This document shows positions 18,586-29,881 of a stretch of DNA of 34,136 bases, piece after piece. The DNA comes from Acidimicrobiia bacterium (GTDB lineage: Bacteria; Actinomycetota; Acidimicrobiia; Acidimicrobiales; Bin134). The translations under genes were made by a program, and so were the position numbers. Within the stretch, counting starts at the first letter, position 1, and each line of letters begins with the position of its first letter. The notes under the pieces are model-generated. The model was not told the origin of the DNA. It did not search any database and saw nothing but the letters and a program-made list of their open reading frames with translations. Location: assembly GCA_009843865.1 (NCBI GenBank), contig VYCQ01000030.1, positions 1 to 34,136 on the forward strand. Reading direction: 5' to 3'.

Positions 18586-21500
18586 TCACTTAGATTGTAG
18601 GGACAGCTGCGCGCGGAACTTAGCGATGTTGGCTAACTTGATGCCTTCATAACCTCGCACCAATTCGGCAGACTTGGCTACTTCCAAGATTGCCTCAAGG
18701 TGTTCGGGGCTGCTGGCTCCTTTTGCTGCTTGGCTAAGGGTAGCTAAGTATTCTTGTGGCAGGCAACGTTCTTCGCGGCGCAGCTGGGTATAGCCGAAGG
18801 GATCCAACGGGGTACCTCGCAACCATTTAGCTCTGGCTAGCAGACAGATCACAGGCCGCCAGCGCTGTACTGACAATGCAATTTTCTGCTTACGCCCTAG
18901 TAAACGCATAAACGGCGGGTGTAGTCGCCAAGCCAAACGATCGCCGGGTTGGGCCACTGCCTCTACAGGTTTGTGCCCATCGGCATCTAACAACAATCGT
19001 GCCACCTCGTATTCATCCTTGTAGGCCAAGAGCTTGAACAGACCCGCAGCCACCGTTTTGGTGATCTCGGTGGTACCCGGGCTGATTTGTTGTTCTAGTT
19101 TGGCGTAGGGGCTCACATGATCTAAGAATTGATGGGCTAGTACACGGTTTTGGAACCTCGCTAACTCGCTGGCATACATCTGCAACGTGTTGGATAGATC
19201 ATTGTCATCGCCTGAGATGTTGGCGATGCTTGACAACAGATCTTGGGTTAAAATTGCTTGTGGAGTGGTCTTCAACCTTGTTCTAGCTGATCTTTTGCGC
19301 GTTGAAGTTGGTTTCGTAGCGTTAGTAACAGCATTGCTTACCGCCGTGGGGTCTGCCATTTGCCAGCGGCCCCAGCGAAAAGCTGCGGTGTTCATCTCTA
19401 CGGCCACACCGTTGAGACCGATGGCGGTTTCTACAGCTTCAGGTGATATCGGTAAAAGTCCTGCCTGCACTGCCATGCCAACCACAAACACGTTTGCTCC
19501 GGTGGCCTCGCCCACCAAAGCCATGGAAGTGTCTGTAGCCGCAGCCCAATGTTGCGCGTCGGGGCGGGTTTCAGCTTGTACCCGTCCTAAGAGTTCTTGG
19601 TCAGATGGCATCTGTGTTTCGGGATGGGCGGTTTTGGTGCCCGGGGGTGTTACGTTGAGCGATCCCACCACTGCTGTGCGAGAGGCATCTGCTGGGCCTA
19701 ATCCAGTGTCGGAAGCTGCCACTAGTAGGTCTAAAGCCAAAAGTAGGTCGGCTTGGTGGTCGCCTAGCCTGTTGCTGCCAGAGCGCCCGTTGCGAGAAAT
19801 GCGTAGGTCGCTCACTACGGGACCTGCCTTTTGGGACATGCCAATTTGGTCTAGCCCGTAAACACTTGATCCGTCTAGCATGGCAGCGGTGCCAATGAGC
19901 TGACCTGCGGTGACCACTCCGGTGCCGCCAATGCCGGTTATGTGTATGTTCACATCTTGTGAAATGTGTGAAGCAGGTTTTGGCAGGTGGGTGGGGGGTG
20001 GAGTTCTGTTGGTGGTGGCATCGTTAGCTGCGCTGGTTTTCGTGAGCTTGGGCCACAGGCGCTTGGGCTTAGTGACGGTAACAAAAGCCGGACAGTCTCC
20101 TTCTAGGCAGGAGAGGTCGATGTTGCAGCTTTCTTGATCGATGGTGGTCTTGCGGCCAAATGGTGTTTCAATGGGCTGCACCGATAAGCAGTTCGAGATT
20201 TCAGCGCAGTGACCACACCCCTCGCACACGCGATGGTTGATGGCTACTCTGGTGCGAGGCTGGCTGACGTGGCCTCGCTTGCGCTCGCGGCGCAATTCCG
20301 CAGCGCATCTCTGGTCGTGTATCAATACCGTCACCCCCGACACGCCAGCTAGCTCTTGTTGCACAGCGGCTAGCTCAGTGCGGTTTCTCACAACCACCTC
20401 GTCTGGTACGCCTAGGCGACGGGTGCGAGATGGATCATCAGAGGTGATGATGATCCGGGAGACACCTTGAGCTAGCAACGAGCGACATACCCGCTCAAGG
20501 GGTATTGTCCCGGCTGGCTCCTGCCCGCCGGTCATGGCCACGGCACCGTTCCACAGAAGCTTGTAGGTGATGTCGATTTTCGCAGCGATAGCTGCGGTTA
20601 TGGCCATCTGACCCGAGTGAAAGAAGGTGCCGTCGCCCATGTTTTGGATAAAGTGCCCCGCTTTTACGAACGGCGCCATGCCGATCCATTGGGTGCCCTC
20701 GTTGCCCATGCAGGTGATGCCAGCTATGTCACCGTAACGTTTCTCGTCGCCTAGCAGGATCATGGTGTGGCAGCCGATGCCTGCGCCTACTGCGGTGTTG
20801 GGGTCGGTCACGGTGCTGCGATTGTGTGGGCAACCCGAGCAGAAATAGGGAGTTCGGTTCACTGTAAGCGGGATGCGTTGTCGCACGGGTGTTGCGGGCT
20901 TTAACTGATTGCTTAGGCGGGCTGCTAAGCGGTCGCGCAGTGGCTCAACTAGGTCGTCGGCATGTAATGCACCATGGCTCTTGATGAGGGTTTGGTCTAG
21001 CTCGTCGAATTCGCCCACCACCTGAGGTCGATGTGAGGTGTTATAGAGGGCATCTTTGACTCGAGATTCTACGTTGGGGGTTTTTTCTTCGATGACAAAG
21101 ATCTCTTCTAGCCCAGCGGCGAATTTGCGGATCGAGGAAACGTTAAATGGTATGGGCATGCCCATACGTAAAAGGCGAATACCAGCGGTCGCTATGTCTT
21201 CGTCGCTAGCTAAGCCTAGAGATGCGAGGGCCTCGCGCACTTCCCAGTAGGTGATCCCTGAGGAAATGATGCCGATCCAGGCGCTTGCGGAATCTACCAC
21301 CACCCGGTTGAGGTGGTTCAGCTCGGCATAGTGCAGGGCTAGGTTGGTGCGTAGCTCCACGATCTCTTGTTCAATGTCTAAGGAGTAGGGGGTGAGCAGG
21401 CGGGTGTTGGGAGCATGCTGGTATGCCTCTCCATTTAGCAGGGGTATCTTGGGGTGTACGTTGTTGGGCTCGAGGTTGACGCTGGCAGACCCATCGGCCA

Positions 21501-22125
21501 CATTGGCCACAATTTTCATGCCTACCCAGAGCCCGGTAGCTCTGCTCATGGCGATGGCGTGACGACCTAGCTGAAGTACATCAGCGGGGTCACCGGGGTA
21601 TAGCACCGGTACATGTAGGTCGGCTAAAACGCCTGCTGTCGAAGAGGGCAAGGTAGAAGATTTGGCGCTTGGGTCATCGCCAGCGAACAAGATCACCCCG
21701 CCTTGGGGGTGTGCGCCTGTGAACACTGCGTGGCGGATGGCATCGGTGGCTCGATCCACACCGGGGGCTTTTCCGTACCAGATGCCGATTACTCCGTCGT
21801 ATTGGGCATCTGGGCGTGATCCAGCTAGCTGGCTGCCCATGACTGCGGTGGCGGCGGACTCCTCGTTTATTGAGGGTCGTAATACCATGGCATCTTCGCC
21901 TGCTTGACGTACAGCAGAATCCAACGCTGCGTCTAGACCTCCTAACGGTGACCCAGGGTAGCCAGCGGCGAAAGCGGCGGTGCGCAGACCCGCGGCTCTG
22001 TCCACTCGGAGTTGTTCTATGGGCAGGCGAGCCATGGCCTGAAGGCCGGTTAAGAAGACCGTGCCGTGATCTTTGGTGTAACGATCTGAGAGGCGGTAGC
22101 TGACAGCAGGCTCGGTGGCGGTCAT
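18586..22125 (-). CDS. Indolepyruvate:ferredoxin oxidoreductase, single-chain alpha-gamma fusion
   Basis: This enzyme oxidatively decarboxylates indolepyruvate and related aryl 2-oxo acids to acyl-CoA, passing electrons to ferredoxin; it serves aromatic amino acid breakdown. The 1179-residue chain holds all domains of the long fused form. The N-terminal pyruvate-binding region has GYPGSPLGGLD (about 55). A cysteine motif FCSGCPHN lies near residue 427 and the TPP-binding motif GDGTFFHSG near 500. The iron-sulfur region has CEGCGHC with further cysteines (NIDLSCLEGDC) from about 637. The gamma domain begins GIGGTGVVTAGQ near 735, and a C-terminal helical domain resembles DUF6537. The ATG has no Shine-Dalgarno sequence, but TAGACT lies nine bases upstream, suggesting a leaderless transcript. 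It stands alone between the transporter operon and the folate operon. The reading frame is intact. Confidence 0.93.
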   Translation of the reverse strand: MTATEPAVSYRLSDRYTKDHGTVFLTGLQAMARLPIEQLRVDRAAGLRTAAFAAGYPGSPLGGLDAALDSAVRQAGEDAMVLRPSINEESAATAVMGSQLAGSRPDAQYDGVIGIWYGKAPGVDRATDAIRHAVFTGAHPQGGVILFAGDDPSAKSSTLPSSTAGVLADLHVPVLYPGDPADVLQLGRHAIAMSRATGLWVGMKIVANVADGSASVNLEPNNVHPKIPLLNGEAYQHAPNTRLLTPYSLDIEQEIVELRTNLALHYAELNHLNRVVVDSASAWIGIISSGITYWEVREALASLGLASDEDIATAGIRLLRMGMPIPFNVSSIRKFAAGLEEIFVIEEKTPNVESRVKDALYNTSHRPQVVGEFDELDQTLIKSHGALHADDLVEPLRDRLAARLSNQLKPATPVRQRIPLTVNRTPYFCSGCPHNRSTVTDPNTAVGAGIGCHTMILLGDEKRYGDIAGITCMGNEGTQWIGMAPFVKAGHFIQNMGDGTFFHSGQMAITAAIAAKIDITYKLLWNGAVAMTGGQEPAGTIPLERVCRSLLAQGVSRIIITSDDPSRTRRLGVPDEVVVRNRTELAAVQQELAGVSGVTVLIHDQRCAAELRRERKRGHVSQPRTRVAINHRVCEGCGHCAEISNCLSVQPIETPFGRKTTIDQESCNIDLSCLEGDCPAFVTVTKPKRLWPKLTKTSAANDATTNRTPPPTHLPKPASHISQDVNIHITGIGGTGVVTAGQLIGTAAMLDGSSVYGLDQIGMSQKAGPVVSDLRISRNGRSGSNRLGDHQADLLLALDLLVAASDTGLGPADASRTAVVGSLNVTPPGTKTAHPETQMPSDQELLGRVQAETRPDAQHWAAATDTSMALVGEATGANVFVVGMAVQAGLLPISPEAVETAIGLNGVAVEMNTAAFRWGRWQMADPTAVSNAVTNATKPTSTRKRSARTRLKTTPQAILTQDLLSSIANISGDDNDLSNTLQMYASELARFQNRVLAHQFLDHVSPYAKLEQQISPGTTEITKTVAAGLFKLLAYKDEYEVARLLLDADGHKPVEAVAQPGDRLAWRLHPPFMRLLGRKQKIALSVQRWRPVICLLARAKWLRGTPLDPFGYTQLRREERCLPQEYLATLSQAAKGASSPEHLEAILEVAKSAELVRGYEGIKLANIAKFRAQLSLQSK

Positions 22126-22140: not shown

Positions 22141-22209
22141 CGGCTAACAAGCAAGGTGGCTCTACTGTCTTATGAAGCTGCTGAGTAGCTGTGCCTGTTT
22201 TGGGCCAAC

Positions 22210-22215
22210 TATTAT
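22210..22215 (+). promoter_or_regulatory. Putative -10 box just upstream of folE
   Basis: TATTAT sits eight bases before the ATG at 22224 and two before the ATG at 22218. No Shine-Dalgarno sequence precedes any candidate start, so a leaderless mRNA starting at about 22222-22224 would explain the arrangement. No good -35 is visible. It mirrors the -10-like box of the divergent gene on the other side of this short interval. Confidence 0.35.
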
Positions 22216-22223
22216 GTATGTGG

Positions 22224-22811
22224 ATGGAGCGACGCTTAGCGTCCAAGGTCGATCAGCCACGTATCGAAGCAGCGGTGCGAGAGATTCTTGAGGCCATTGG
22301 AGAAGACCCTAATCGAGACGGGCTACTTGATACCCCGATGAGGGTAGCTCGGATGTATGCCGAGATTTGCGAGGGTTTACATCAAGATCCTGCGGCGCAT
22401 CTCACTTGCAAGTTTGAGGCCGACCACGATGAGATGATCTTGGTGCGAGAGATCCCCTTGTATTCGCTGTGCGAGCATCACATGATTCCGTTTTTGGGGA
22501 AGGCTCATGTGGGTTACATTCCTAATGCCGATGGTTGCATAACCGGCCTCTCTAAGCTGGCTCGAATGGTGGAGGGCTATGCCCGAATGCCGCAAGTACA
22601 AGAGCGGCTTACCACTCAGGTGGCCGATGCAGTTGAGAGAGTTCTCAAGCCACGAGGGGTTATAGTGGTGGTGGAAGCCGAGCACCTGTGCATGTCGATG
22701 AGGGGGATTCGCAAGCCAGGTTCTAACACCGTCACCTCGGCAGTTCGAGGCTTGTTTCGTTCTGACAGCGCTACTCGCGCTGAGGCAATGCGCTTTATTG
22801 ATGGCAGATAG
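22224..22811 (+). CDS. folE: GTP cyclohydrolase I
   Basis: This enzyme converts GTP to 7,8-dihydroneopterin triphosphate, the first step of folate synthesis. The sequence shows the family run [20 protein letters not shown] and the zinc and active-site motif [40 protein letters not shown], the second zinc ligand in HLCMSMRG and a normal C-terminus follow. I chose the ATG at 22224 (about 195 residues) because of the TATTAT -10-like box just upstream. The ATG at 22218 and a GTG at 22191 are in-frame alternatives, and only the N-terminal few residues are affected. It opens the folate-pantothenate-NAD gene run, but 110-odd bases separate it from folP, so folP may also have its own promoter. Confidence 0.95.
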
Positions 22812-22930
22812 GGGTCACTCACCGGCAAGCACCCATAAACGGCGTGTTGTAGTTAGTGTTTGGCTTGTTGTATGAGATGGACGCTTAGCGACATTTACGG
22901 GCGTGCAGGTACCCTGAGAAGGTGCAAACA

Positions 22931-23758
22931 GTGAAAGCTGAGTCTGTGGTGATGGGCATAGTCAATGTAACCCCTGATTCGTTTTCTAATGATGGGTTGT
23001 ATGGGTCTAGCGAGGCCGCTATTGCTCAAGGTCTTCAGCAGTTTAGTCAAGGTGCCGCGATTGTGGATGTGGGCGGAGAATCCACCCGTCCGGGGGCCCT
23101 GTCGGTGCCGTTGGACGAAGAACTGCGTCGGGTTGTGGACGTGGTAGCGGGTTTAGCCCCTCATGGCAGGGTTTCTATCGATACCACTAAAGAACAGGTA
23201 GCGGTGGCAGCAGCAGAAGCTGGTGCTTGCATCTTGAATGACGTGTCAGCCAACTTGTGTGAAGTGGCAGCCCAATTGGGAATGACATGGATTGCGGTTC
23301 ATCGTCAGGGCACCGCAGCCACGATGCAAGACAATCCCACCTACGGTGATGTGGTAGTTGAGGTTGCTGAGTTCTTGGTGGGAGCACTACAGCGGGGTGT
23401 GGTCGCTGGGGTAAAAGAGGTGTGGGTTGATCCGGGAATTGGCTTTGGTAAGACCACCGCTCACAATTTAGAGCTGCTAGCCAATGTCCGTGGATTGTCT
23501 GAGTTAGGAGCTCCGTTAGTGGTAGGGGCTAGCCGTAAACGATTCATAGGCGAGCTGCATGCCCGTAGTGATGCCATCGCTAACATGGATGCCAACGATT
23601 TGGGAGTGCAGGTGCCCGCAGACGACCGCTTAGAAGGTTCGCTAGCGGTTGCCACATGGGCATTTTCTGAAGGAGCGTCTGTGGTACGAACTCACGATGT
23701 GGCATTCACCGTTGATGCTTTAAGGGTTGTCGGGGGAAAAGAGGCGGTAACGATATGA
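22931..23758 (+). CDS. folP: Dihydropteroate synthase
   Basis: This enzyme joins 6-hydroxymethyl-dihydropterin pyrophosphate to p-aminobenzoate and is the sulfonamide target. The TIM-barrel motifs are all present: MGIVNVTPDSFSNDG, DVGGESTRPGA, SIDTTK, ILNDVSA, WVDPGIGFGKT and VGASRKRFIG. I chose the GTG at 22931 because GAGAAGG (22916-22922) lies eight bases upstream; the GTG at 22922 overlaps that ribosome-binding site and is less likely. The length of about 275 residues is normal. Its stop overlaps the next start as ATGA. It is the second folate gene and is probably coupled to the following phosphatase-like gene. Confidence 0.95.
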   Translation: MKAESVVMGIVNVTPDSFSNDGLYGSSEAAIAQGLQQFSQGAAIVDVGGESTRPGALSVPLDEELRRVVDVVAGLAPHGRVSIDTTKEQVAVAAAEAGACILNDVSANLCEVAAQLGMTWIAVHRQGTAATMQDNPTYGDVVVEVAEFLVGALQRGVVAGVKEVWVDPGIGFGKTTAHNLELLANVRGLSELGAPLVVGASRKRFIGELHARSDAIANMDANDLGVQVPADDRLEGSLAVATWAFSEGASVVRTHDVAFTVDALRVVGGKEAVTI

Positions 23759-24351
23759 AGGGTAAGTGGGCTGAAGGCATTCAACCGCGCAATTTTCGTT
23801 GGATCATGCAAGACAGGTTGGCTGTTTGCGAGCGTCCTGGTGGTCAAAGTGAGAGCCATAGACGGGTTCGCCGCACCGAGGAGATTAATTGGATTCGTCA
23901 GCAGGGTTTTTCTCGAGTGGTGTCGTTGATGCCATCCACCCACAATCTACACAGCTACAGCGAACAGAATATTGCCTGGAGCCACTGGCCGATTTCCGAC
24001 AGGGAAGAATACGGAGATCGGCTAGGCGCATTGTTTGTAGAGCTGAACGTGCTTTTGACCCGCGGCGAGAAGGTGTTGGTTCATCGTCGTAGGCTGAGCG
24101 ATGAGGTGTGTGGCTTTATGGCCGGGTATTTGCTTTGGATGGGGATGGTGTCGGGTGAATCGCAGGTGGTGGTGATAATGGAGAAGATGACACAGCGTCC
24201 TTTTGGCGCGCTAGGGCGTCGGATTGTGAGCGCAGCGGCAAGGATGCCCGCGCCCGAGGTGTTGCTGGCTTCCAGAGACGATGCCAGCGTTGCCGAGCAG
24301 GAGGCCGATAAGGTCTCAGACCAAGCAGAACTCGGCGAGAGCCCGCCATGA
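23755..24351 (+). CDS. Dual-specificity-phosphatase-like protein with a degenerate active site, in the folate operon
   Basis: I recognise the fold rather than a named gene. GFSRVVSLMPS (51-61), then AWSHWPISDREEYGD (74-88, with D82 where the general acid normally sits), then GEKVLVH (104-110) and GYLLWMG match the layout of small tyrosine/dual-specificity phosphatases. The catalytic loop, normally HCxxGxxR, here reads HRRRLSDE at 110-117: the nucleophilic cysteine is R111, the glycine L114 and the arginine E117. It therefore cannot act by the usual cysteine chemistry. The C-terminal 40 residues are polar and probably disordered. It overlaps folP and folB by 4 bases on each side, so it is co-translated with folate enzymes. 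A role as a pseudophosphatase that binds a phosphorylated pterin or protein, or in dihydroneopterin triphosphate dephosphorylation by another chemistry, is possible but unproven. Confidence 0.7.
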   Translation: MKGKWAEGIQPRNFRWIMQDRLAVCERPGGQSESHRRVRRTEEINWIRQQGFSRVVSLMPSTHNLHSYSEQNIAWSHWPISDREEYGDRLGALFVELNVLLTRGEKVLVHRRRLSDEVCGFMAGYLLWMGMVSGESQVVVIMEKMTQRPFGALGRRIVSAAARMPAPEVLLASRDDASVAEQEADKVSDQAELGESPP

Positions 24352-24713
24352 GCGAGGATCGGCTGTTTCTTAGGGGCCTTCAGATCATGGCCTTGTGCGG
24401 GGCTTTGCCGGAAGAGCAGACCAGAGCGCAACCCTTTGAGATGGACATAGAGTTAGGTGCAGATTTGGTTCCTTCAGGGGTGTCCGATCAGCTTGGCGAT
24501 ACTGTGGACTACAGTGCTGTATGCGCCGCGGTGTGCGCGGTAACCCATGGTCAGCGCTTCGAGCTCATGGAGGCCATGGCTCACAAAGTGGCTGAAGTGT
24601 GCTTTGGGTGTGATGAGCGGGTGGTACATGTGACGGTGGAGGTTCGTAAGCTGCGTCCCCCCGTGCCTTATAACTTGGCGATTAGCGGGGTGCGCATCAC
24701 CCGTCGCCTTTAA
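24348..24713 (+). CDS. folB: Dihydroneopterin aldolase
   Basis: This enzyme cleaves 7,8-dihydroneopterin to 6-hydroxymethyl-dihydropterin and glycolaldehyde. The 121-residue protein shows the T-fold family pattern. LFLRGLQIMALCGALPEEQTRAQ replaces the more usual GxxGxxxxE start region, with the glutamate kept. QPFEMDIEL, DTVDYSAVCAAV, FELMEAMAHKVAE and VEVRKLRPPVPYNLAISGVRI follow, the last carrying the conserved lysine. The ATG overlaps the previous stop as ATGA. folK starts one base after its stop. The order folP-x-folB-folK supports the assignment. Confidence 0.93.
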   Translation: MSEDRLFLRGLQIMALCGALPEEQTRAQPFEMDIELGADLVPSGVSDQLGDTVDYSAVCAAVCAVTHGQRFELMEAMAHKVAEVCFGCDERVVHVTVEVRKLRPPVPYNLAISGVRITRRL

Positions 24714-24714
24714 T

Positions 24715-25248
24715 GTGGTATTGGCTCAGCACTCAACCATCAGCATCTCTTCAGGGCCTAGTAGGGCCTTTTTGGGGTTGGGTTCCAATATGGGCGACAG
24801 ATTGTGCTTTTTGCAAGCAGCGGTAAACGCTATAGATGCCATAGATGACTTGGTCGCTGTCTCTGGGGTTTACGAGACTGATCCGGTCGGTGGGCCTCAA
24901 CAGGGGCTGTTTTTAAATGTGGTGGCTCAGTTGAGCACCGGCCGGTTGCCTCGAAACCTCTTAGAGCTTTGTCAACAGCTGGAGACTTCAGCCGGTCGGG
25001 TGCGGGAGGTTCGTTGGGGTCCTCGTACTCTGGATGCTGATGTTTTGTGGGTGGAAGGCGAGACAGCGGATGAGCCTGATCTGATTGTGCCACATCCTCG
25101 CATGTTGGAGCGGGCGTTTGTGATGGTGCCACTGGGAGAGTTGGCCCCTGATTTGGTGGCAGGGTGGGTTAACCCTGGAATTGGCGATTGTCGTCGCTTG
25201 GGGGATTGGGATCAACTAGCTATCCGAACCGGCGAAGGCAGCTTATGA
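24715..25248 (+). CDS. folK: 2-amino-4-hydroxy-6-hydroxymethyldihydropteridine pyrophosphokinase
   Basis: HPPK transfers pyrophosphate from ATP to 6-hydroxymethyl-dihydropterin, giving the substrate of FolP. The motifs are complete: FLGLGSNMGDR, SGVYETDPVGGPQQGLFLNVV, RWGPRTLDADVLW (with the magnesium-binding aspartates) and PHPRMLERAFVMVPLGE. The start is GTG at 24715, with the folB TAA ending at 24713; an ATG at 24713 is out of frame. The 177 residues are normal. Its TGA overlaps the panC ATG. Confidence 0.95.
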   Translation: MVLAQHSTISISSGPSRAFLGLGSNMGDRLCFLQAAVNAIDAIDDLVAVSGVYETDPVGGPQQGLFLNVVAQLSTGRLPRNLLELCQQLETSAGRVREVRWGPRTLDADVLWVEGETADEPDLIVPHPRMLERAFVMVPLGELAPDLVAGWVNPGIGDCRRLGDWDQLAIRTGEGSL

Positions 25249-26111
25249 GCGCAGGGTTTGCAATTCCAGTTGTTCATAGTGCATCGGATTTGCGGGCTAT
25301 CACCGAGCCTATGCGTGCTCAAGGTGCAACGGTGGGTCTTGTGCCTACCATGGGCTACCTACACGAGGGTCATCAATCGCTGGTGATCCGCTCGGCCGCT
25401 GAGAACGATTTGACCGTGGTGAGCATCTTCGTGAACCCGCTTCAGTTTGCCGAGGGCGAGGACTACAGCATTTATCCTCGTGATCTCCAGCGAGATCACG
25501 AGATGTGCGCAGAGGTTGGGGCTGGGCTGGTGTTTGCTCCTTCTGCTGAGGAAATGTACGCAAAGGCACCCATCACTTCGGTGGCGGTTCAGGGGTTTAA
25601 CGCTGTGTTAGAAGGGCGGTTCCGCCCCACTCACTTTGATGGGGTCTCTACCGTGGTGGCCAAACTGTTCGCCATGCTGGGTCCGGATCGGGCTTATTTC
25701 GGAGAGAAGGATTATCAGCAGCTTGTCATCATCCGCCGCATGGCTTTCGATTTGTCTTTTTCTGTCGAGGTGGTGGGCTGCCCTACATTGCGTGAGTCCG
25801 ATGGTCTGGCAATGTCTAGCCGAAACGTGTACTTAACCGCCAGCGAACGATCTGCGGCCACCGTGTTGTGGCGATCTCTTCAAGCCGGGCGAGAAGTAGT
25901 GATGGCGGGAAATCGTGATCCCGACGAAGTAGAGGCGGTGATGGCTGCGGTGATAGCTGCCGAGCCCAAGGCATCTACCGACTACGCCGCGGTGGTACAC
26001 GCCGACACGTTGGAGCGTCCTGAGGTGCTGAATGGTGAGCTACGCCTGCTGATGGCCGCCCGTATTGGTCAAGCCCGGCTCATAGACAACATCGGGGTTA
26101 GTTGTGAGTAG
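25245..26111 (+). CDS. panC: Pantothenate synthetase
   Basis: This enzyme condenses pantoate and beta-alanine using ATP to make pantothenate, the coenzyme A precursor. Motifs are VGLVPTMGYLHEGHQSLV (HIGH-like nucleotide site), SIFVNPLQF, FGEKDYQQLVIIRRM and ESDGLAMSSRNVYL (KMSKS-like loop). The ATG at 25245 overlaps the folK stop as ATGA and gives 288 residues; a longer upstream frame to 25188 has no support. panB and panD are not in the window. The stop overlaps nadC by 8 bases. Confidence 0.96.
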   Translation: MSAGFAIPVVHSASDLRAITEPMRAQGATVGLVPTMGYLHEGHQSLVIRSAAENDLTVVSIFVNPLQFAEGEDYSIYPRDLQRDHEMCAEVGAGLVFAPSAEEMYAKAPITSVAVQGFNAVLEGRFRPTHFDGVSTVVAKLFAMLGPDRAYFGEKDYQQLVIIRRMAFDLSFSVEVVGCPTLRESDGLAMSSRNVYLTASERSAATVLWRSLQAGREVVMAGNRDPDEVEAVMAAVIAAEPKASTDYAAVVHADTLERPEVLNGELRLLMAARIGQARLIDNIGVSCE

Positions 26112-26940
26112 TTTTGATCCTCCAGCGCACGAAGTGCGGATGGCTGTTGAGCGGGCTTTGGCTGAGGATTTAGGACCTGAAGGTGATCTCACCTCGTCGC
26201 TTTTGCCCTCTGTTGATGTGATTGCTGTAATCGTGGCAAGGGCTGCTGGGGTCTTAGCCGGGCGGGCTTGCGCGACCGAGGTATTTCGTCAGGTCGATCC
26301 TTCGGTGATGTTACGGTGGGAGGTTGCTGACGGCGACCGGGTGAGTCCCGGCCAGCAGCTGGCTGCGGTCACAGGTTCTCGATCCTCGGTGCTCACTGCG
26401 GAGCGTACTGCGCTGAATTTCTTGAGCCATCTTTCTGGCATTGCTACCGAAGTGTCTCGGTACGTCGCAGCTGTTGCTGGCAGCGGCCGTGTTCGTGATA
26501 CCCGCAAGACCACCCCTGGCCTGCGGGTGTTGGAGAAGGCGGCTGTGCGGGCTGGTGGCGGCGACAACCACCGAGCGGGGCTCTCGGAATGGGTCATGTT
26601 TAAAGATAATCATTTGGCTGCCATCACCATTACCGAAGGGGTGTCGGCCGCTCGCCAGCGTTGGCCTGAGCGTGCCGTTTATGTGGAGTGCGACCGGATA
26701 GAGCAGGTAGATGAAGCCCTGGCTGCTGGCGCAGACGCTCTGCTGTTCGACAACATGACCCCTCAACAGGTGCTGACTTGCGTGGAGCGGGCTGAGGGCC
26801 ACGATTGCCTTCTAGAGGTGAGCGGTGGCATCACTCTAGAGACGGTGGCTGAGTACGCTGTTACTGGGGTGGACTTCATCTCGGTGGGCCAGCTCACCAA
26901 CTCGGCTCCGGCTTTAGACATCGCTCTTGATGTGGTTTGA
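26104..26940 (+). CDS. nadC: Nicotinate-nucleotide pyrophosphorylase (carboxylating), quinolinate phosphoribosyltransferase
   Basis: NadC converts quinolinate and PRPP to nicotinate mononucleotide in de novo NAD synthesis. Family motifs: ALAEDLGPEGDLTS near the N-terminus, AERTALNFLSHLSGIAT and DTRKTTPGLRVLEKAAVRAGG. NHRAGLSEWVMFKDNHL and LEVSGGITLETVAEYA follow. GTG start at 26104, 278 residues, normal. nadA and nadB are not seen here. It is the last gene of the biosynthetic run; no intrinsic terminator is obvious after it, and the tandem repeats begin 24 bases downstream. Confidence 0.96.
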   Translation: MSSFDPPAHEVRMAVERALAEDLGPEGDLTSSLLPSVDVIAVIVARAAGVLAGRACATEVFRQVDPSVMLRWEVADGDRVSPGQQLAAVTGSRSSVLTAERTALNFLSHLSGIATEVSRYVAAVAGSGRVRDTRKTTPGLRVLEKAAVRAGGGDNHRAGLSEWVMFKDNHLAAITITEGVSAARQRWPERAVYVECDRIEQVDEALAAGADALLFDNMTPQQVLTCVERAEGHDCLLEVSGGITLETVAEYAVTGVDFISVGQLTNSAPALDIALDVV

Positions 26941-27090: not shown

Positions 27091-28374
27091 GTGAGCGATC
27101 TGCGGAACACACTTACCATGCCCGGTTATCTAATGCGCGTTGCGGGCAGCGCTGTGGAGAGTGCTTTGCGCAGGCGGGGAGCTGTGTTGATCGAGGGGGT
27201 GCGCGGATGCGGCAAGACTTGGCTTGCTCGGTATTTTGCCCGTAGTGAAGTTCGCCTTGACAACGAGGCAGTATTGCTGCTGGCTTCTTCTGACCCTGTT
27301 GAAGTACTTCAAGGCCCCGTGCCTCGGCTGCTTGACGAGTGGCAGAATGCTCCAAAGCTGTGGAATTGGGTGCGCCGAGAGTGCGATGATCGCCCTGAGC
27401 GGGGCCAATTCATACTCACTGGTTCGGCTGTCCCCCAAGATGATGTGACTCGACATACTGGAACCGGGCGCATCAGTCGGGTGTTGTTGCGCCCGATGTC
27501 GTTGTTTGAGGCGGGGCGGTCCACCGGTGATGTGTCGTTGAGGGCGGTATTTGAGGGCGATGCTGTGTCGTCGATGCCCAACGAGAGAGTAGGGCTGCGC
27601 GAGATCGCTAGTGCAATCTGCGCTGGTGGATGGCCGCAGAATTTGGACGAGAGTGATGGAGATGCATTTCAGTCGGTTCGTGACTATGTGGGAGAGGTGG
27701 TCAGGGTGGATTTACTCTCCGGGAGTGGGGTTCGCCATGATCCTGACATGGTGCGGCGATTCATGCTGGCTTTGTCCTATAGCATTTCCACCGAGGCGAA
27801 GATTACAAAGCTGGCATCGGATGTGAGGATTGGTAATCCCCCTGGCCGGAATACCGTTGCTGCTTATTTGGACGCGTTGCGTCGAATCTTCGTTGTGGAA
27901 GACCAGCCAGCTTGGCCCGTTAGCCTGCGCTCTAAAGCTGTGTTGAGACGGGAGGCCAAGCGCCACTTCGTCGATCCGTCACTGGCTGCGGCGCTTGTAG
28001 GAAGCACTCCCGAGCGACTGTTGGCAGACCACACCATGTTTGGCATGTTGTTCGAGTCGCTGGTGGTGCGTGATCTTCGTGTGTACTCGCAGTCCGACCT
28101 TGGTGGTGTCTTCCATTTTCGAGACAACACAGGGCTTGAGGCCGATGCAATAGTCGAGCGTGTAGACGGTTCGTGGATTGCAGCAGAAATCAAGTTAAAC
28201 ACTGCTTCAAGCGTGATCGACAGGGCTGCCAAGACATTGAAGCGACTCCAAGACAAGGTAGTCCGTCAGCGTTCCAGCGAGCTAGCTGCATTGGTTATAA
28301 TAACGCCTACCGGATCTGCTTATCGTCGTCCCGATGGGGTGCAGGTTATCCCACTGCCCCTTCTGGGTCCATAG
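27091..28374 (+). CDS. AAA-type ATPase with C-terminal DUF4143 (PD-(D/E)xK-like) domain
   Basis: This intact 427-residue P-loop protein belongs to the AAA_14/DUF4143 family. Walker A GVRGCGKT is at 36-43, Walker B LLDEW around 80-84, and a sensor-like FILTGSA follows. The C-terminal half has the DUF4143 pattern ending in FRDNTGLEADAIVE and AAEIKLN, a PD-(D/E)xK nuclease-like core. GTG start at 27091 with a perfect AGGAGG eight bases upstream. Family members are common accessory genes of unknown function in bacteria and archaea, often in variable islands. The tandem AACGCGCT array over its promoter suggests tight control. Its last 29 bases overlap the end of the opposite-strand coiled-coil gene. 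The function is unknown; a defence or toxin-like role is only a guess from context. Confidence 0.88.
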   Translation: MSDLRNTLTMPGYLMRVAGSAVESALRRRGAVLIEGVRGCGKTWLARYFARSEVRLDNEAVLLLASSDPVEVLQGPVPRLLDEWQNAPKLWNWVRRECDDRPERGQFILTGSAVPQDDVTRHTGTGRISRVLLRPMSLFEAGRSTGDVSLRAVFEGDAVSSMPNERVGLREIASAICAGGWPQNLDESDGDAFQSVRDYVGEVVRVDLLSGSGVRHDPDMVRRFMLALSYSISTEAKITKLASDVRIGNPPGRNTVAAYLDALRRIFVVEDQPAWPVSLRSKAVLRREAKRHFVDPSLAAALVGSTPERLLADHTMFGMLFESLVVRDLRVYSQSDLGGVFHFRDNTGLEADAIVERVDGSWIAAEIKLNTASSVIDRAAKTLKRLQDKVVRQRSSELAALVIITPTGSAYRRPDGVQVIPLPLLGP

Positions 28375-28696
28375 GGGGTTCAATAGGCGCTAGCTCAGCG
28401 GCGGTATTGGCAGGTATGTCGATTGTTAGGACACCCTCGACCCGAGCCATCCTTTGTTCAAGCCGACCCACCCTCTCCTCCAACCGGGCGATCCTCTGCC
28501 CGTTCCTGATCACTTCTTTCTTGAGTTCAGCGAGCATGTCTAAAATGTGTTCGATCTGGGCTTCGATTCGGGCGATCCTCTGCCTGTTTTCGATCACAAT
28601 GTCGCGCAGTTTGTCGGTTGTTCGCTGTTGGTGCCAGATAATGGCGAGGACAGCCACCATCAAGGTGAGGATTTGGGTGACTACCTCCACGCTCAT
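28346..28696 (-). CDS. Small membrane-anchored coiled-coil protein
   Basis: This 116-residue protein has one N-terminal hydrophobic segment (TQILTLMVAVLAIIW, about 7-21). A long coiled coil rich in Arg, Glu, Ile and Leu follows to about residue 90, and then a Pro/Glu/Ala-rich tail. The coiled coil contains repeated phrases NRQRIARIE, NGQRIARLE and EQRMARVEG. Two near-identical 20-base DNA segments at 28485-28504 and 28569-28588 are 84 bases apart, i.e. 28 residues or four heptads, so part of the gene was duplicated in register. The ATG has AGGA seven bases upstream and a good promoter-like pair (separate entry). I do not know a named family; similar small proteins seem common in actinobacterial accessory regions, from memory. 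It sits between two DUF4143-type genes on the opposite strand. The open frame on the other strand here has no family motif and I regard it as a shadow. Confidence 0.7.
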   Translation of the reverse strand: MSVEVVTQILTLMVAVLAIIWHQQRTTDKLRDIVIENRQRIARIEAQIEHILDMLAELKKEVIRNGQRIARLEERVGRLEQRMARVEGVLTIDIPANTAAELAPIEPPMDPEGAVG

Positions 28697-28702
28697 GACA
28701 AT

Positions 28703-28731
28703 ATCCTATCTGCCGATCCCATAGCTTACAA
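28703..28731 (-). promoter_or_regulatory. Promoter of the coiled-coil gene
   Basis: On the minus strand TTGTAA (28731-28726) and TAGGAT (28708-28703) are 17 bases apart, with the ATG six bases further on. This gives a transcript that starts at or near the ATG (leaderless), unless the AGGA inside TAGGAT serves as a Shine-Dalgarno sequence of a longer RNA. The surrounding DNA is A/T-rich. Confidence 0.45.
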
Positions 28732-28765
28732 CCTAAAATATATAGAATATACGGAAATCCCTTTC

Positions 28766-29881
28766 TTGTGTGAGGTGGCAAAACTTGTCCACAAACTCGA
28801 CGGAGAAGTGGCAGACACAACATACCGGGGTTTAGATCGTGGTATCTCTGAGACGTTTCAGCCCGATGTCAGCCACCTCGTCAAAGTTTGGCAACACTGT
28901 CGTTATCAGGCCATGCGTTCGCCTAGCGGTTTTGTTCTTGTTCTAGACGAGATTCAACGAATTGATGGATGGTCGGAGGTGGCGAAGGGGCTGTGGGATG
29001 CCGACCGCAGGGATGGTTGTCCTCTGCGTGTGGTGATTCTCGGGTCGGCACCGCTTCTTATGCAGGAGGGTTTGCATGAGAGTTTGGCTGGCCGGTTCGA
29101 GCCGATTCACTTTACCCACTGGTCGTTTGCCGAAATGTCGGAGGCATTTGGCCTTAGTTTGGAAGAGTACATTTACTTCGGCGGCTACCCTGGCGCGGCC
29201 GCCAGAATAGATGACCCCGACCGATGGGGTGATTATGTTCGTAGCGCTCTCATCGGGCCTGCTATGGAGCGTGACGTGCTTGCGATGGTTAGGGTGGATA
29301 AGCCCGAGCTGCTCAAGCGACTCTTTGATCTTGGTGCGCGTTACTTCGGCCAACAGGTTTCGTACACCAAGTTGTTGGGCTATCTTCAGGAGGCCGGCAA
29401 CACAACCACCCTCACCCGCTATCTAGAGCTTCTTGCCCGAGTGGGCATGATTACCGGATTGCCCAAGCTGACCAATCGTCCGACATCGCCTAAAGCTCCC
29501 ATTCCGAAGTTGAACGTGCTCAACACCGCCCTCATGTCAGCGGTTGGTGGTTACAGCTTCGATGCGGCTCGAGCCGATCGTTCGTATTGGGGCCGCCTGC
29601 TAGAGAGCTGCATGGGCGCTCACCTGTTGAACGCTGCTTCGCCGAGGACCGAGGTCAAGTATTGGCGCGACAAGCAGCACGAGGCAGATTTTGTGCTTCA
29701 GCGCGGACCGCACCTCGTTGGTATCGAGGTTAAGAGCGGACAAGCTTCCGTCGCCCCAAGAGGTCTGAAAGAGTTTCAAGACCGTTTTAGGCTAGTAAAC
29801 ACTGTTGTAGTTGGAGATGGCGGTGTGCCTCTTTACGAGTTTTTGACCCTGCCCCCCGATCATTGGTTCGATTCCCCGTGA
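28766..29881 (+). pseudogene. DUF4143-type AAA ATPase lacking its P-loop (5'-truncated)
   Basis: The family part begins around IPFLCEVAKLV and runs to the stop. Walker B is clear (FVLVLDEIQRI), followed by ILGSAPLLMQEGLHESLAGRFE, HWSFAEMSEAFG and FGGYPGAA. Next come DVLAMVRVDKPELLKRLFDLG and NTTTLTRYLELLARVGMI. The C-terminal EADFVLQRGPHLVGIEVKSG is a PD-(D/E)xK-like core. Relatives carry a Walker A motif about 50-70 residues before Walker B; none exists here. The open frame continues upstream to 28547, but that part is simply the complement of the coiled-coil gene. So the first fifth of the gene is missing. TTG at 28766 or GTG at 28775 are the only nearby starts and neither has a good ribosome-binding site. 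Its stop overlaps the NACHT start as GTGA, so the two were once coupled. It belongs to a different branch of the family from the intact gene upstream. Confidence 0.75.

Follow-up and report, generated by a model that had tools for sequence, protein, structure and literature searches.

A Cysteine-Less Relative of Dual-Specificity Phosphatases Conserved in the Folate Operon of Acidimicrobiia

Results

Gene X Lies Between folP and folB

The window, i.e., the whole stretch of 34,136 nucleotides analyzed here (contig VYCQ01000030.1 of an Acidimicrobiia bacterium), carries on its forward strand an open reading frame at 23755–24351 encoding a 198-aa cysteine-less protein of PTP/DSP fold, hereafter X, which was characterized through its translation, its homologues, an AlphaFold2 model and dN/dS. 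Its neighbors, identified with Pfam and NCBIfam, are all on the same strand: folE, GTP cyclohydrolase I (22191–22811; PF01227, 5e-76); folP, dihydropteroate synthase (22922–23758; TIGR01496 over cut-off); folB, dihydroneopterin aldolase (24348–24713; TIGR00525 over cut-off); folK, HPPK (24715–25248; TIGR01498 over cut-off); panC (25188–26111; PF02569, 7e-103) and nadC (26104–26940; PF01729/PF02749). The stop codon of folP overlaps the start of X, and the stop of X overlaps the start of folB, in both cases through the tetranucleotide ATGA. The reading frame, its coordinates and both overlaps had been reported in a first-pass annotation of this DNA and were recovered when the sequence was read again. 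Since the listed start codon of panC overlaps folK, the true start of this gene may lie further downstream.

Divergently from folE, the reverse strand (18586–22125) encodes a 1179-aa protein which by eye resembles a fused indolepyruvate ferredoxin oxidoreductase, and the place of this gene beside the operon is kept in the genus. Soon after nadC, two genes of the forward strand (27091–28374 and 28547–29881) appear by eye to encode AAA-type ATPases of the DUF4143 kind that are paralogues of each other. Elsewhere in the window's genome, outside the operon, lies another FolP-like match, which is weaker (86 bits; G000:C2:56234-56893). This genome, of 1.79 Mb at 98% completeness vs. 2.2–3.8 Mb in the same genus, looks reduced.

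X Has the Fold of VHZ/DUSP23 Phosphatases

A dual-specificity phosphatase outline had been ascribed to X by eye, and both sequence and structure comparisons agreed with it. A phmmer search of the PDB with the single sequence matched 25xa (E 3e-4), and the match improved to 8e-9 when a profile of 42 X homologues was used. The AlphaFold2 model of X (pLDDT 92, pTM 0.88) had its best structural matches, by Foldseek and VIA-align, in the VHZ/DUSP23 phosphatases (PDB 2img, 4erc; by sequence 25xa), with a Z of 17.8 and an rmsd of 2.1 over 146 residues for 2img. The likeness covers the whole fold and includes a similar N-terminal W-V...LA...P segment and the His of the P-loop. X differs from this type in lacking the catalytic Cys and the P-loop Gly, and in the window copy also the Arg, and in having an acid at position 116 and, following ERPGG, an additional insertion rich in Arg and His. 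The window protein matched nothing in Pfam or NCBIfam, and the same search with all 42 homologues returned nothing naming the family; the Pfam DSPc model (PF00782) had no match in the window protein and a weak one (E 0.004) in 1 of the 42 homologues. X is by fold a relative of the dual-specificity phosphatases and by signature not an active member, and can be placed among the loosely defined pseudophosphatases.

The Catalytic Loop Is Replaced Throughout the Class

Codons 110–117 of X (24082–24105) read HRRRLSDE (H110 to E117). Alignment of this loop to HCRAGYGR of the intact 25xa places replacements at C111, G114 and R117, which are the Cys, Gly and Arg of HCxxGxxR that the first-pass annotation had described as replaced. 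The same loop was read in 122 Acidimicrobiia sequences, a few of them represented twice from the same genome, and an intact HCxxGxxR, which would have meant a recent decay in the window, was seen in none (0/122); neither did any sequence combine C111 with R117. Only two homologues had a Cys at 111, L107 (HCEEVSDK) and L174 (HCDDIDDQ), both without the Gly and the Arg, and Gly114 was present in no homologue of the class.

Conservation was then counted in a reduced set of 101 sequences, in which one representative of the window's genus was kept. H110 was invariant, position 112 was acidic in 96/101, position 116 in 100/101, G120 was found in 99/101 and Arg117 was retained in 55/101. These counts give a class motif Hx[D/E]xx[G/S/D][D/E], from which the window's genus departs by having Arg or Trp, and no acid, at 112. 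D82 of the window protein aligns with the general-acid Asp of 25xa, but in other members of the class an Asp at this position is uncommon.

The strongest conservation of X lies in codons 26–46 (23830–23892), where the pattern ERPGG..HR.VRR.EE..W is near-invariant and is common to relatives outside the class; after PGG, the corresponding stretch of 25xa is six residues shorter. The nearly invariant polar positions were E26, R27, H35, R36, R39, R40, E43, Y68, H110 and the acid at 116, and 23 columns were invariant across 42 X sequences of the order, Acidimicrobiales. The description of X as phosphate-binding was not upheld by these data, since the loop is acidic in most of the class; any anion site in X would have to come from the nearby conserved Arg/His segment.

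X Is Nearly Universal in Acidimicrobiia and Under Purifying Selection

The family was searched in Actinomycetota genomes, and the contigs were additionally scanned with a pattern for close relatives. Homologues of X were present in 58 of 60 relatives of the window and in 283/296 Acidimicrobiia genomes at least 90% complete. The 13 genomes without X comprised nine of family f33, one of f114 (G635) and three drafts, which may simply be incomplete. A plasmid search gave no match, and a literature search linking Acidimicrobiia with folP and folB found no paper in the collection searched.

The median dN/dS within the genus was 0.09 for X, compared with 0.16 for folP, 0.17 for folB, 0.15 for folK and 0.04 for folE. 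Purifying selection and the conserved homologues ruled out a chance reading frame, and class-wide conservation together with dN/dS ruled out a recent decay of the gene. In distance matrices, X tracked all of the operon genes, panC included (r 0.57–0.76), which fits vertical inheritance.

Synteny With fol Genes Is Conserved, With Few Rearrangements

The gene order was examined at those distinct X loci of the class whose flanking sequence was long enough, 86 in all. The fol genes adjoined X in about 85 of them, with folP directly upstream in 80/86, and the commonest order was folE-folP-X-folB-folK, which was also kept in four f120 genomes of only 1.0–1.1 Mb. The comparison of homologues proposed in the first-pass annotation found no intact loop in the relatives examined and the fol synteny conserved across the class; an absence of fol genes beside X elsewhere would have spoken against its proposal.

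A different arrangement was found in five genomes, four from f42 and one from f43, in which X lies between folP and folK, and a second cluster carries folE and folB. This second cluster (L134–L138) has the order SDR reductase-folB-folK::folE, the last two as a fusion, so that there are two folK genes per genome. In G233 (f44) the order was folE-X-folB-folK. In f33, folE-folP-folB-folK was intact without X in 4/4 operons read, and in G635 the operon runs directly from folP to folB; in these X-less operons (L133, L224–L227) the folP and folB matches are only 48–211 bp apart. Because f33 lost X and yet kept the four fol genes, X is replaceable.

The idea that X is a regulator of FolE, lost together with an altered FolE, was discarded, as no such link was found across f33 and f120. 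A low-scoring FolE was indeed seen in five f33 genomes without X (G053, G553, G601, G630, G644), but FolE was near-normal in G516, G643, G645 and G668, also without X, and low-scoring in f120 although X is present. Nudix genes numbered 3 in the window genome, 2–3 in f120 and 5–8 in f33, counts which, as the genome sizes differ, do not decide whether X was replaced by one of them.

Relatives Outside the Class Share the Core of X

Distant matches to X were found in 6/396 genomes of the phylum, and in 27/200 when the search was centered on one of them. These relatives share ERPGG.G..HR..RR..E and a loop near Hx[D/N]xxx[D/E] (e.g., HCDRVSEW, HVNRPGEW, HGNRHTDF); the intact loop was absent from them as well, and no fol gene was found in the stretch read around them. 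A sister branch from another actinobacterial class (L116–L121, L240–L266), whose loop is degenerate in a different way, lies near genes which by eye encode sigma factors, sugar transferases, thioredoxins or HAD-like proteins. That the same core occurs outside a folate context would point to a site for ligand binding or catalysis, and not to a surface shaped for a single folate enzyme.

Discussion

Loss of the nucleophile from a protein kept under selection is known from the STYX-type pseudophosphatases of eukaryotes, one of which (2r0b) was among the structural matches of X. X shares with them the PTP fold without its Cys, but it is bacterial, belongs to a biosynthetic operon, and has had the rest of the loop rebuilt and not only the Cys exchanged. 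One history to be considered, put forward with reserve, is that the ancestor of the family was a VHZ-like dual-specificity phosphatase, that its catalytic loop had already been replaced when the class began to diversify, and that the family became fixed in the folate operon.

Our working proposal, held tentatively, is that X may represent an undescribed cysteine-independent PTP-fold family of the folate operon which handles a phosphorylated dihydropterin. Such a protein would no longer form a cysteinyl-phosphate, and its old active-site cleft would bind the pterin compound. The phosphates would be held by the Arg/His segment (R27, H35, R36, R39, R40), as the corresponding stretch flanks the cleft in other dual-specificity phosphatases, and D116, an acid close to the loop, would hold a metal, a water molecule or the pterin ring, a task that acids perform in other pterin enzymes. 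A nearly invariant polar set, most of which recurs outside folate operons, would be more in keeping with a site for ligand binding or catalysis than with a surface for binding one partner. Against a pterin-phosphate role, an acidic loop should repel phosphate, and the window's genus has no acid at 112. A catalytic role is further opposed by the fact that, to our knowledge, no PTP-fold enzyme is known to hydrolyze its substrate without the Cys.

The leading specific guess would be that X takes phosphate or pyrophosphate off dihydroneopterin triphosphate (DHNTP) without the help of a cysteine, between FolE and FolB. This step is attractive because most bacteria have no gene assigned to it (PMC1971073). 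A candidate hydrolase inside a fol cluster has precedents in FolQ, the Nudix DHNTP pyrophosphatase, and in the proposed HDIG phosphohydrolase FolQ2 (PMC1971073); these are of other folds, and X had no Nudix (PF00293) or HD match in Pfam/NCBIfam. That X is itself a DHNTP phosphohydrolase filling the folQ step, with His or metal/water chemistry in its rebuilt loop in place of the cysteine nucleophile, seems unlikely to us. X is dispensable in f33, it parts from folE and folB in f42/f43 while staying with folP and folK, and one of the three Nudix genes of the window genome could perform the step. Of what the first-pass annotation had proposed, the part that stands is a conserved cysteine-less phosphatase relative belonging to folate synthesis, supported by the missing intact loop in the relatives examined and by the conserved fol synteny; the DHNTP step is no more than a possibility, in view of the f42/f43 split and the f33 loss.

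X could instead be a true pseudophosphatase, i.e., a non-catalytic partner of FolP, FolB or FolK, or a sensor of pterin phosphates, which adjusts flux or channels intermediates. This is a serious possibility, though we would not presume it. Most described cysteine-less PTP-fold proteins are regulatory, and here the examined homologues have lost the Cys and the Gly, and most of them the general-acid position too; X also remains with folP and folK where folE and folB have moved, and it can be lost while the pathway genes stay. However, many of its conserved polar residues fall, by alignment, in segments that would line the active-site cleft of other dual-specificity phosphatases and recur in relatives without fol linkage, and the distance matrices give FolP, FolB and FolK no special co-variation with X over PanC.

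The same polar constellation would also suit an enzyme acting on another substrate, such as a pterin (di)phosphate that is damaged or leads nowhere, or some other phosphorylated metabolite of the folate/pantothenate/NAD operon. The near-universal and yet dispensable nature of X, the presence of panC and nadC in the window's operon and the relatives not linked to folate all point that way; nevertheless, the genes tightly linked to X are folP, folB and folK, not panC or nadC, and this explanation is rather improbable. Far more improbable still is that X has decayed and keeps its frame through translational coupling alone. The lost catalytic loop and the ATGA overlaps at both ends would agree with decay, but a dN/dS of 0.09 in the genus, the 23 columns that do not vary among 42 sequences of the order and the retention of X in genomes of about 1 Mb argue strongly against it.

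X, a class-wide and nameless protein fixed in the folate operon, offers a concrete single-gene candidate for the step between FolE and FolB or for pathway control. If X is catalytic, it would represent a phosphatase fold changing its chemistry; a non-catalytic X would be a pseudophosphatase of bacterial biosynthesis whose set of genomic partners is very clear.
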